DNA of 64,000 bases from Tetrahymena thermophila SB210 (lineage: Eukaryota > Ciliophora > Oligohymenophorea > Hymenostomatida > Tetrahymenidae): NCBI RefSeq assembly GCF_000189635.1, contig NW_002476157.1, positions 62,001 to 126,000 on the forward strand, written 5' to 3'. Shown here in pieces: positions 3,070-14,245 of this stretch (the stretch's first letter is position 1; every line of letters starts with the position of its first letter). The position numbers and the translations under genes are program-made. The notes below the pieces were generated by a model, which worked only from the letters and a program-made list of their open reading frames with translations, was not told the origin of the DNA and did no database searches.

Positions 3070-4617
3070 TCATATTTAACTTCTTTTAGAAATATTTTCT
3101 GATATATTATTTACATTTGAAATCTTTCTTTATTTATATAATAATTTGGCATCACGCTTACTTAAGAAGAGCTGTTCTGAATTTTTGATATTCATCTATT
3201 GAATTTCTTTATCAAACAATTCCTCATCACTATCTTCTTCTATTTTTTCCATACGATTCCATTAGCCAGAGGTTTCGAATTATTATTTCTAAGTACGCTT
3301 AATATTTGCCTTTTTCTTCTAAATGCTATGATTTGGATGGTTCGAAGAATTTGGTCTACTTTAAGTTCTATGAGGTTTGTTATTTTAGCTTTTAATTTGA
3401 TTTTAATGATGGTTATGATTATGATGATGTTATTGCTACAGTTAATTTTAATTTTAATGCTAATTTTTTTTCTAGGTATGATGAGCTTGTCTTTCTTAAT
3501 CCTCTTCACCTTTCTTATTAGATATTGAATTCGAAGTAGAATTCATTTAGTTAGATTTTTCATGCTTAGAGTTTTTAGGTGAGTCAGTTTCACTACCAAT
3601 TTGATTTTGACTTGAAATATTACTGGAAGTATCATTAATTTTTTTGTTTTACACATTCTGGTTGGTGTCTGAGCTATAGTAGCTAAAATAATCGTCTTGA
3701 TCGTCTACATCAAGTAGTTTAGATTGCATTTAAGATAATTCATCTTTACTCTCATCACAGCACTCCCCACTTTGCTGCTCTTAATAAATTTAAGTTTTTG
3801 AAAGCGATACTCTATTTTTTATGGCATCAAGAATTCTTTTGTCACTTAAAAAAATGATCATAGTGAAAAATCCTTGAGAGCAAGTCAAAACTAAGGAAAT
3901 ATCTGTTAGAAATGTATTTCCTTCTCCACCAAAAGTTATGATTGTCCTATTTATAGTGCCAGCAAACCAACAAATTATCCAAAGACAGGGGTAATACAAA
4001 AACCTTCTAATAACAAAGTAAGTTTCTGTGTTTGCAATATCAAGATCTTTTAGCATTTTCATAGTTCTTAAAATGAGAATAAAATTTAAGAAAATACATA
4101 CCCATAAAGGAAAGTAAAATAAACCCCACACTTATAGCAGCTCAGCTACTCTTCCTAAATTATCAGTAATCCAGCAAACACCATTAGCCCTCCCAAAAGA
4201 CCCAGTTATAAAAGGGATTACACTTAGAACTAAAGGTATTACAAACCCTAAAAATATAAAGACTTTTTCTCTCTTTGCCATGTTCTTAATTTTATTCTTT
4301 ACTGTATCGTGAATAGTCAAAGAAAGGATAGTTATCCATATTAGCATACACTCAGAAGTGTAAGTAGAGATAAATGCTTAAATCATACATAATGGATTCA
4401 TACTATCGTTTTCATATGAGTTATTTATATCTAAAATAAACTCAAAAAACGCCTAAAAAGAATAAATTGTATTCGACATCCCTACATACATAATCATTTT
4501 ATTACCAAAAGTCTTCAATTCTGGAAGTCTGTAATAGCAAAATATTATGATGGTCCCGCCAATAATAGATATTGAGCAAGAAATCATTCCAAATATATTA
4601 ATTAGATACAAACTCAT
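3070..4617 (-). CDS. cAMP-receptor-like seven-transmembrane GPCR with a long His/Gln-rich tail
   Basis: Intronless 515-residue frame from ATG 4617 to TGA 3070. The first ~275 residues hold seven hydrophobic segments, starting at residue 1 (MSLYLINIFGMISCSISIIG). TM3 lies in LCMIQAFISTYTSECMLIWI. An extracellular CWIT motif precedes TM5 (VWGLFYFPLWVCIFLNFIL). This order matches class E/Dictyostelium cAR-type receptors, which signal through heterotrimeric G proteins at the plasma membrane; ligand cannot be inferred. The cytoplasmic tail (~240 residues) is polar, with a His/Asn/Gln run around 3420-3470 and an acidic stretch (EKIEEDSDEELFDKE) near the end. The tail frame is confirmed because it is continuous with the membrane domain; frames read in other phases over 3200-3530 are shadows. 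It could alternatively be an orphan GPR family, but the 7TM call is firm. Confidence 0.85.
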
Positions 4618-5807
4618 GACTAATCTAAAACTAAATATTCTTAATGCTCAATGAAAGTAGAATATGTGAATTAGTGTCCAACAATGATTGATTAATTTAT
4701 TGTCTATAAACTAAAGCGCTTATTTTGTTACCGCTTAGCTGTTCCTTTATAAAATAAATACAAGGGAAAATATTTGCTTCAATTAGCTTACTTGCTTGTA
4801 AAATTATTAAGCCTCTTAAATTACTAATTTCTCTACAAATTTGTTTTATGTTTTTATTCCCAACCACACTCTAAATATTAATTAATATATCTATTTATTA
4901 ATTAATGTATTTGTTTTAAATATCTTTCTATGCTCCTTTGATAAAGAATGTATAAAATCCAAATCTATGAGTCTTTATTTTCCTAATTCTTATTTAAATT
5001 ATTTTTTACCTTCCATCTTTTTTTTATATTTTACTTTCTTTTCAGAAAAACTTATTACTGATTAGAGCTGAAGCAAAACTATCTTTTCAGCTCAGCAAAT
5101 AAAAAGCTATCCTATTTTGATAAATTGATTAATTGGTTTGTTAGTTTGTTTAATTTTTTTACAACCTTAAATGATGAATTGAAGTAAATATTACGAAATT
5201 TGTTTATATTCAAATCATTTACATATTTTTTCATTTTCAAACCAAATATCTCATTAAATAAATAAAGTAGATATGTGAAAAAAATAAAGATTTCTTCCTT
5301 CCTTAAATTTTATAATTTAAATATTTGTAAAATCACAAATTTTTCAATAGAAGTTAAAAATTAACTCCTGCATAATAAATAAGATCAAATATATTACAAT
5401 TCTTTATATTCTTAATAATCTCCAAGTATATCATTGTATAATTGAAATGAAGATATGTAAACGCATTCTTAACTTATTAGTAAAATCATGACGAAAAAGC
5501 TAAGCTATAAAAAATTATTGATATCTTTCTAATAAGAAAATTAAAAAAATAAAAGATTTGCTCTCTAAATTAAAAAAAAAATTGGTACTTGTATAAAAGA
5601 ATAACTTCAAAAATTTATGGAGAATTGCTTGATATCTGCAATTATTTTACTACAAAAATTATCAACCGACATCATCAAAAAAAAAAATCCAGAATACAAT
5701 TTTTTAGTTTTATAGACAATTTCTTTTAGAAAAATTCAACAACAGTAAATTTTATTAAAAAGATGAATTAAACGAATAATTAAATATCTTTTTTGATTTA
5801 GTAATTA
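4618..5807. other. AT-rich intergenic spacer
   Basis: Upstream of the receptor and downstream of the RAD54-like gene, both on the minus strand. No conserved motif or RNA gene recognised. Confidence 0.7.
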
Positions 5808-11964: not shown

Positions 11965-13148
11965 TTGGTTTATATTATTGATTTACCTTTTTTTACTGAA
12001 TTATCTTTTTGATCAAATATTTATTTGAATTTTATTTAATTATAACGATTAAATAGGAGACGTATCCTCTCTTCTACTTACTTACCATTTATTTAAAAAT
12101 TCAAGCAAATCAACATGATTTATATGGGAATGAATTAGGTAAAAGAAAGCAAGCATGTATATTTTTAGAACAGAATTTTGGGTGCTTTTGAATTTTATTA
12201 TATGGATAATAAATAAATGTGATATATGATTGAGCCATAAAATATCTCAATAATTACGTCACTTACGTAGAAATGATTATTTACGCACTTAAAATCCTTA
12301 AGCAAATTTCATTCAGCTTTCTTTCTCCTTAACTTCTATATTTGTAAATTTAAAAGCTTTTCTGATCAACTTTAAAACTAGCATTATAAATTGAAGTTAA
12401 ATCTTAACTTAACTATTGAAGTATCAGATAACAACAAAATTATTACTTAACTATAATAGAATTTTCTAATTAGAAGAGTATCTTTGTAACTAAAATTTCA
12501 AATCTATATCTTATAAATTCGAAATAAGATATAAATTAAAAATATTAATTTCTTATCAATTTTCTATTTATTATTTAACAATTTTTTTTTCTACTCAAAA
12601 TAAACAGCTTGTCTCTTTCTCTTCCCTCTGATCTTAATTATTCCACTTTTAGTAATTAAAAAGTTTAAATAATTTTTATTTGGCTATTTTTTATGCATCG
12701 TTTTACGTTATTTAAATGATCATTTATAAAAATACATCCAAAATCTACTAATAAAATGTATCTTAACTAAAATGATTTAAATAATTTTAAATATTACGAG
12801 GATGCTAAGAACTTTTTTTTAGAAGTATAATTAATTTTTATATTAAATACTGATGATTTTTTCCTTATATTTTTTCGTTATTATCAAATATTCAAATATA
12901 GATTTTATAAGTATTTAAAAGTAATAATTTTTTTTAATTACAAATAGACTTGAGTATTTCTTAAAAGAATTAGTTTTTAAATATAAAGTAAAAAATGTAT
13001 TGCTTTTGAAGATTAATACTTTTCTGTAATATTTATAATTAAGATTATTGAAATAAATATTTTTTTTAATTTAACAAATCTTTGGTTATAAAAAGCGGTT
13101 TTTGTTCAATTTTTTGAATTAAAACTTGAGATTTAAAAAAATAAATCA
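11965..13148. other. divergent intergenic spacer
   Basis: Separates the divergently transcribed malate dehydrogenase and B-box/macrodomain genes, so it should hold both promoters. Very AT-rich; no specific element recognised. Confidence 0.7.
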
Positions 13149-14062
13149 ATGGACTTAAATTAAAATATTAAAATTTCTACACCAAAAGAATTAGATAATA
13201 TTATGTAATAGTAGCAGTAGTTTTTGTGTAAATTACATAAAAAGTAAAATTTATTCAAATGTTCATGTGAGTAAAATTTTATTTGTACAACTTGCTTTGA
13301 CTCAGGAAAGCATATAAATCATGTAGTTGATACTATAGCATCAGATGAAGCTCCTAATTCAATAAACTTCTAAAAAATATATTTAAAAAATGTTTGTTAT
13401 TTATCACCTTTCATAATTAATTTGTACAAATTTTGATATTTAGAAAACAAATAATTCTTTTAATTTAAAAGAAAGATGAAGAAAAAGGTGAGCAAGGTTA
13501 AGTTTTTGAAGTAAAAGGAGATTTGTTGAATTTTTAGGCTGATATAATTGTATAATAGTGTAATTGTATTACTACAAATGAAAAAGGGCTTTCTTAATCT
13601 ATATTAAAAAAATTTGGGGTAAGTGCTTATGAGACAAGAGTGAAAGGTAAAGGAAATATTGCTGATGTAAGCTCAATAGATATTCCAGGTACATGCTTAT
13701 TTTAAAAACCTAAGATAAAAAACAAAAATTGCTAAATCCAATATATCGCAAATCTCTTTAGCCAATTTACGCCAGGAAAGAATGGATTTAAATACTAAAA
13801 TACACTATGTCAATAAATATAGGATCCATTAACAAACAAACCTATTGTTGATAATTTCTCAAGTAGAGAAAAATGGTTTGAAGTGTGCTTATAATAATTG
13901 GCAGATTTTGCTAAGGAAAAGCAATTATTCAAGATAGCATTTCCCTATAAAATTGGATGTGGCCTCGCAGGAGGTAAATGGGAAAACTACAAAAAAATGA
14001 TATAAGAATTTTCAGAGAATAATATAGATTTAAAAATATACATCGTCTAACTTGAAGAATGA
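13149..14062 (+). CDS. B-box zinc finger fused to a TARG1/Poa1-like macrodomain
   Basis: 277-residue protein of two exons; intron 13392..13471 (GTTTGT donor, AAAAG acceptor, the only acceptor that keeps the frame). The N-terminal exon carries a perfect B-box 2 pattern: Cys27, His30, Cys38, Cys46, Cys49, His55, His58 (C-x2-H-x7-C-x7-C-x2-C-x5-H-x2-H) after a Gln run. Residues ~90-277 form a macrodomain: VFEVKGDLLNFQADIIVQQCN at the start and AFPYKIGCGLAGGKWENY near the end, the signature of Poa1/TARG1-type enzymes that hydrolyse ADP-ribose esters or ADP-ribose-1''-phosphate. The B-box suggests a protein-protein or targeting role. Activity is inferred from family only. A decayed copy of its 3' end follows directly (14117-14245). 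The joining of the exons needs transcript support, since the acceptor is non-standard. Confidence 0.85.
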
Positions 14063-14110
14063 AAATAATTTGTAACAAATAAAAACAATAAAACTATCTC
14101 TAAATTATAA
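13948..14110 (+). repeat. unit A of a degenerate direct repeat (3' end of macrodomain gene)
   Basis: Covers the last ~115 bp of the macrodomain coding sequence and ~50 bp of 3' flank. Shares the blocks gacctcgc-like/gaggtaa, ggaaaacta, gtctaacttga, taacaaataaaaac and ctaaatta with unit B immediately downstream. Confidence 0.7.
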
Positions 14111-14116
14111 TATACT

Positions 14117-14245
14117 TACGAAATAAGATATGACCTCGCGAGAGGTAATAGGAAAACTAAAAAAAAGAACTAAATATGTCTAACTTGATAAGTGAAATAA
14201 TTTTATAACAAATAAAAACTATAAAAAACTAACCCTAAATTATTT
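14117..14245 (+). repeat. unit B: decayed tandem copy of the macrodomain gene 3' end
   Basis: Aligns by eye to unit A in order: gacctcgcgagaggtaa, taggaaaacta, gtctaacttgataagtgaaa, ttataacaaataaaaact, ccctaaattat. It lacks about 40 bp matching the codons for IQEFSENNIDLKIY, and carries base changes elsewhere. It looks like a relic of a partial tandem duplication rather than a second functional gene. Confidence 0.7.

Follow-up and report, generated by a model that had tools for sequence, protein, structure and literature searches.

Within a 64,000-nucleotide stretch of Tetrahymena thermophila DNA (hereafter the window), a short open frame carrying a zinc-finger-like motif is followed on the same strand by a frame encoding a macrodomain. 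This arrangement raises the question of whether the two frames belong to one gene and, if so, what its protein may do. The window was translated with the ciliate code (code 6), in which TAA and TAG encode Gln. The use of this code is supported inside the window itself, because the acetyl-CoA synthetase gene reads TGG TAA ACT GAG ACT (WQTET) and its in-frame TAA sits at the expected Gln of what we take to be a motif of that family. When the two exons were joined across the proposed intron, they met in phase 0, and the predicted spliced product was a protein of 277 aa (Table 1). The two-exon gene that a sequence-only reading had placed at 13149-14062 therefore keeps its coordinates and its phase, with the splicing as a prediction.

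Table 1. Features of the predicted B-box-like finger/macrodomain gene and bacterial loci with linked glycohydrolase genes.
Feature	Position	Strand	Remarks
Exon 1	13149..13391	+	Met1, run of 5 Gln, B-box-like zinc finger, 23-aa linker; 81 codons; code-6 translation
B-box-like zinc finger, Cys27 to His58	13227..13322	+	Motif scan and sub-threshold Pfam zf-B_box
Predicted intron, 80 nt	13392..13471	+	GTTTGT..TTTAAAAG, 16% GC; alternative donors and acceptors possible
Exon 2, macrodomain of 196 aa and TGA stop (14060-14062)	13472..14062	+	Profile and fold matches
Asn31 codon	13562..13564	+	Equivalent to SCO6735 Asn27; Asn in 60/60 rows, window included
Lys38 codon	13583..13585	+	Equivalent to SCO6735 Lys34; Lys in 4/60 rows, window included
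Gln98 codon CAA	13763..13765	+	Equivalent to SCO6735 Gln85, TARG1 Lys84, DarG Lys80; Gln in 57/60 rows, window included
Gly164 codon, GCGLAGG motif	13961..13963	+	Equivalent to SCO6735 Gly128; Gly in 58/60 rows, window included
Loci with glycohydrolase genes, first eight			L112, L116, L118, L126, L130, L132, L133, L138
Loci with glycohydrolase genes, other seven			L139, L141, L143, L156, L157, L161, L164

Upstream of exon 1, its frame is closed by a TGA at 12951, and the first ATG after this stop is the one at 13149; if left unspliced, the frame runs into the TGA at 13434, inside the intron. For the macrodomain, the frame is free of stops from 13349 and of ATG codons up to 13600; having no ATG ahead of the domain, it therefore needs joining to an upstream exon. 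Scans of the window for tRNA and Rfam elements found nothing. Elsewhere in the window, a GPCR-like ORF on the minus strand (3073-4647) gave a Pfam match to Dicty_CAR, the family of cyclic AMP receptors of slime molds (E=5.7e-11).

The splice sites were assessed against eight introns placed in the acetyl-CoA synthetase and SNF2-type genes of the window. These were placed by reading homology to RAD54 and acetyl-CoA synthetase rather than by an aligner; the intron of the WD40 gene, intron 4 of the synthetase gene and intron 1 of the SNF2-type gene were left out. The eight introns measured 50-378 nt, four of them end in AAG and one begins with GTT, so the unusual sites GTTTGT..AAAAG match the local style. 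The GC content of the proposed intron was 16%, as against 29% for exon 2. The final 21 bases of exon 1 contain no G or C, which makes its donor uncertain. With donors in 13320-13436, we found 12 in-frame GT-AG pairs; these junctions change the linker and the residues that precede the first strand but leave all eight finger positions intact. A 20-nt intron at 13424-13443 was likewise in frame, but it is shorter than any of the eight measured introns and was not preferred.

The alternative is that the junction is mis-called or that two genes are present, the finger ORF encoding a separate short protein and the macrodomain having another first exon. The odd GTTTGT donor and the GC-free end of exon 1 speak for this, exon 1 could encode a 95-aa protein that ends with TGA 13434, and a second plus-strand frame, open over 12391-13479 with internal Met codons, could supply another exon. 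However, that second frame carries no recognised motif and the finger ORF is the only upstream ORF that does, some upstream exon is required by the macrodomain frame in any case, and the finger survives every one of the 12 in-frame pairs. We consider two genes or a wrong junction distinctly unlikely, and the two exons are very probably spliced together.

Just downstream of the gene, 14120-14243 holds a decayed partial copy of its 3' end and flank, in which 14178-14226 is 84% identical to 14045-14093. The local alignment score of 74 exceeded those of all 500 shuffles (best 46), and the copy of the GCGLAGGKW stretch reads YDLARGN by eye.

The B-box consensus is C-x2-H-x7-10-C-x2-[C/D]-x4-C-x2-C-x3-6-H-x2-4-H, and the finger of exon 1 reads C27-x2-H30-x7-C38-x2-E41-x4-C46-x2-C49-x5-H55-x2-H58. 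Seven of the eight ligand places are thus occupied as expected, in line with the earlier claim of seven ligands at exact spacing, and the eighth holds Glu41 in place of the usual Asp or Cys, the residue directly ahead of it being a Cys. A strict pattern that accepted Cys, Asp or Glu as the eighth ligand had a single match across the 64-kb window, read in all six code-6 frames, and none among 200,000 shuffled versions of exon 1. When exon 1 was searched alone, Pfam zf-B_box ranked first (E=1.7e-4), at 22.1 bits under a cut-off of 24.1, followed by zf-UBR (E=2.3e-3; 18.4 bits against 25.2); on the full 277-aa protein, zf-UBR was listed (E=0.0045) and zf-B_box was not. To call the finger a textbook B-box 2, as had been done, is therefore too strong. 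Six PDB sequences matched exon 1 at E up to 10, four of them TRIM B-boxes (best E=0.095), the other two being an ATP/GTP-binding protein and UBR1. The single-sequence AlphaFold model of exon 1 was of low confidence and uninformative (pLDDT 46.6).

UBR boxes carry extra zinc ligands downstream, of the CDCGD type. A UBR box was ruled out here, since exon 1 has no Cys beyond Cys49 and the zf-UBR score stays under its cut-off. Neither Pfam nor a scan of the three plus-strand frames of 12013-13391 with one RING pattern found a RING upstream of the finger, and the protein is for this reason not regarded as a TRIM protein. Only a short linker separates the finger from the macrodomain. The finger is predicted to bind zinc.

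The assignment of exon 2 as a macrodomain, also made in the sequence-only reading, is firm. Residues 10-195 matched PHROG 335 with E=3.3e-22, and tblastn matched 224 phage records at E up to 0.1; Pfam PF01661 was found below threshold on the protein (E=0.0016), and the 31.3 bits of NCBIfam DarG lie under its cut-off of 250. An AlphaFold model built on an alignment of the window row and 59 relatives (60 rows; 128 relatives had passed the filter) reached a pLDDT of 88.7 and a pTM of 0.86. Foldseek compared this model with the PDB and returned 172 matches at E up to 0.001. The top row was a designed serine hydrolase (4j4z, E=7.4e-9), whose scaffold we take to be a macrodomain, and next came E. 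coli YmdB, PARP14, TARG1, DarG and macroH2A. Among the best 50 of the 172 matches, TM-scores to the query were 0.49-0.62, and TARG1 and DarG were present while 5e3b, 2fg1 and 6lfu were absent.

Sequence searches of the PDB were used to place the domain among the known classes. The single-sequence search gave Bacteroides BT1257 (2fg1/2afc) at E=0.0016, TARG1 at 0.024, Streptomyces coelicolor SCO6735 (5e3b) at 0.14 and yeast Poa1 at 0.92, and the profile of the 60-row family gave 3e-26 for 2fg1, 1.2e-21 for 5e3b, 6e-19 for Poa1 (6lfu) and 2.8e-16 for TARG1. SCO6735 and BT1257 are macrodomains of the ALC1-like class, and the former is an eraser of thymidine- and protein-linked ADP-ribose. Their Asn, Lys, Gln and Gly determinants are retained in the window protein; unlike it, both are free-standing bacterial proteins without a B-box.

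The active-site positions were compared through the profile alignment to 5e3b, whose chain was numbered to bring the residues cited in the paper onto matching letters. Four of five residues important in SCO6735 were retained (Asn31, Lys38, Gln98 and Gly164); the position of the fifth, Lys89 of the mobile loop, is Gly102 in the window protein, with Lys103 adjoining. According to passages of the SCO6735 study, Q85A lost activity fully, N27S and K34E almost fully, and G128E had lowered activity; Gln85 stands at the position of TARG1 Lys84 and DarG Lys80, and a catalytic water is proposed (PMC9411070). In the results passages of a further study SCO6735 is inactive on 5'-phosphate-linked and 2'-OH RNA ADP-ribosylation, whereas a passage of its discussion has the enzyme act on RNA phosphate ends (PMC11833690).

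The earlier reading had called the macrodomain TARG1-like. The two share the macrodomain fold and the GCGL motif, and an orthologue of TARG1 working through its Lys/Asp dyad could be argued from the single-sequence search, in which human TARG1 (C6orf130) ranked above SCO6735 with a common GCGL..W motif, and from its listing in the fold search (E=5.7e-8). However, both catalytic positions are changed: Lys84 corresponds to Gln98 via SCO6735 Gln85, and Asp125 to Ala166 in the single-sequence PDB alignment. The family profile also fits TARG1 ten orders of magnitude more poorly than 2fg1. Membership in the TARG1 group was rejected on these residues and an orthologue is highly improbable, so that the label does not hold in the catalytic sense. 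The catalytic Lys80 of DarG is likewise not matched, its position being Gln98. Judged from the aligned letters, the residues of the window macrodomain fit the SCO6735/BT1257 type better than TARG1.

A Poa1-type enzyme, clearing ADP-ribose 1''-phosphate as a by-product of tRNA splicing, was also considered. Poa1 shares the macrodomain and is matched by the family profile, phage relatives are annotated Macro_Poa1p_like or similar to cd02901, and PHROG 335 carries the name phosphatase. On the other hand, the profile fits 2fg1 and 5e3b better than 6lfu. In the profile alignment Poa1 reads LFTSSF and NSGIAG where the window protein reads LFSQFT and GCGLAG, and Poa1 keeps neither Gln98 nor the GCGLAGG motif. 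In addition, a B-box would be of no obvious use on a diffusible metabolite. This alternative is unlikely.

The explanation we favour, tentatively, is that the spliced ciliate gene encodes a B-box-tethered ADP-ribose eraser of the SCO6735 type. The 277-aa product would consist of an N-terminal B-box-type finger, a short linker and a single macrodomain. The macrodomain would bind the ADP-ribose end of a modified macromolecule and hydrolyse the bond as proposed for SCO6735, with an Asn-held Gln touching the distal ribose and water attacking, without a Lys/Asp dyad. The B-box may bind a partner and so hold the eraser at one cellular place. The reading frames, the fold and branch of the macrodomain and its key residues follow from the computations, whereas splicing, zinc binding, catalysis, substrate and tethering are inferred. 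Several observations weaken this explanation. A near-invariant His (56/60 rows, and also present in SCO6735) is Gln28 in the window protein (codon TAA), Gln being found there in 4/60 rows, window included; the Lys89 position is Gly102; and in the single-sequence search 5e3b ranked below TARG1. The absence of 5e3b, 2fg1 and 6lfu from the best 50 fold matches, the sub-threshold zf-B_box score, the low-confidence exon 1 model and the inactivity of SCO6735 in the RNA results also count against it, as do two features of the gene neighbourhoods described below, namely that the PARP contigs are largely one group and that the glycohydrolase loci lie outside the tree.

The loss of this His also fits a reader, which would bind ADP-ribose or poly(ADP-ribose) without cleavage while the B-box brings a partner to chromatin carrying ADP-ribose; macrodomains are described both as readers and as erasers in passages of a published account (PMC7050489). 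The retained Asn31, Lys38, Gln98 and Gly164 count for the eraser and against the reader, which seems to us rather unlikely.

The relatives of the macrodomain were then considered. Of three scans of viral and genome contigs with alignment queries, the first confirmed at least 225 relatives and the other two confirmed 264 and 208; 80 loci were kept from each. No relatives came from viral-contig scans with either exon alone, and a phage protein as query brought up a single locus, 100% identical. In the 60-row tree, the window grouped with 24 rows, 22 from viral contigs and two (L088 and L089) from genome contigs, with a support of 100/98. Inside this 25-row clade the window takes an early position on a long terminal branch, at a lower support of 100/70. 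L089 is a 5.5-kb MAG contig with a coverage of 2.6 and may be mis-binned. In L088 (2-8428), on a contig titled Deltaproteobacteria, the clade macrodomain is embedded in a frame of some 2,800 residues, open over nearly the full stretch.

The viral-contig relatives are roughly 26-39% identical to the window macrodomain and share with it the pattern R...F..C and IA.P..IGCGLAGG.W..Y. The top viral fold match was Marseillevirus LCMAC101 A0A481YRS7 (453 aa, 30% identity over the aligned part), which is named uracil-DNA glycosylase and is a fusion to a macrodomain by that name only. Together with this protein, macrodomains of viral contigs (IMG/VR; L008, L169-L175 and others), which share the clade of the window, are among its closest known counterparts. 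No B-box-like pattern was present in table-11 frames of at least 50 residues at the 247 loci scanned.

A BLAST search with the PARP of one viral contig (E up to 1e-4) located PARP genes in the flanks, which span up to 4 kb, for 7 of the 24 relatives in the window clade, as genes in L173, L174, L179, L188 and L189 and as fragments only in L190 and L195. The viral-contig PARP lies 0.5-2.4 kb upstream of the macrodomain on the same strand. WGR, regulatory and catalytic PARP domains were identified by Pfam in all four copies tested (L173, L174, L179 and L188), and the six copies other than the query were 58-72% identical to it, two being fragments of 90 and 141 aligned residues. One contig outside the tree (L066/L223) also had a PARP near the macrodomain. 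Since the PARP contigs are largely one related group, the linkage represents few events. In Cellulophaga phages, about 17 kb separate a macrodomain from an annotated PARP, and macrodomains occur in 56% of jumbo phages according to passages of a viral survey (PMC9503650).

Genes for ADP-ribosylglycohydrolase-like proteins, one to three per locus, lay within 4 kb of the macrodomain gene at 15 of 80 bacterial loci (Table 1), 14 of which are titled Bacteroidota and none of which is among the 60 tree rows. An ADP-ribosylglycohydrolase gene (L169:2-838, minus strand; Pfam E=1.6e-39) also shares a viral contig with a window-clade macrodomain. These neighbourhoods tie the macrodomain branch to the making and removing of ADP-ribose, perhaps on DNA, and count in favour of the eraser, as does the viral fold match named uracil-DNA glycosylase.

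Both domains are of known kinds, and any novelty of the protein lies in their pairing. The earlier statement that no well-described protein consists of only these two parts was borne out to the extent that a literature search of partial coverage found no published pairing of B-box and macrodomain. The nearest likenesses are partial. Tetrahymena Zfr1p is a ciliate protein with an N-terminal B-box that contributes to localisation, but it differs in a hydrophobic C-terminus, and a macrodomain goes unmentioned in the passages concerned (PMC3519685). Dictyostelium DDB0232928 joins a RING-related module, macro and PARP in one protist protein, but the module is a U-box rather than a B-box and a PARP catalytic domain is present, as described in part of its source (PMC2964712). 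PARPs are numerous in ciliates; for Tetrahymena itself, at least 11 putative ones are given in passages of one report (PMC6562869).

A broader proposal, which we put forward as speculative and somewhat doubtful, is that ciliates made the fusion, by which a macrodomain of virus type, similar to SCO6735, became an eraser targeted to ADP-ribosylation on DNA or chromatin. The B-box partner would bring the hydrolase to PARP-marked sites, and the branch would have passed between protists and viruses, a part of the viruses having their own PARP next to it. If the favoured explanation is correct, a mechanism described in a bacterium would extend to a eukaryote in the form of a Gln active site of the SCO6735 type, and the B-box would give a direct test of whether adaptor fingers send ADP-ribose erasers to their targets.
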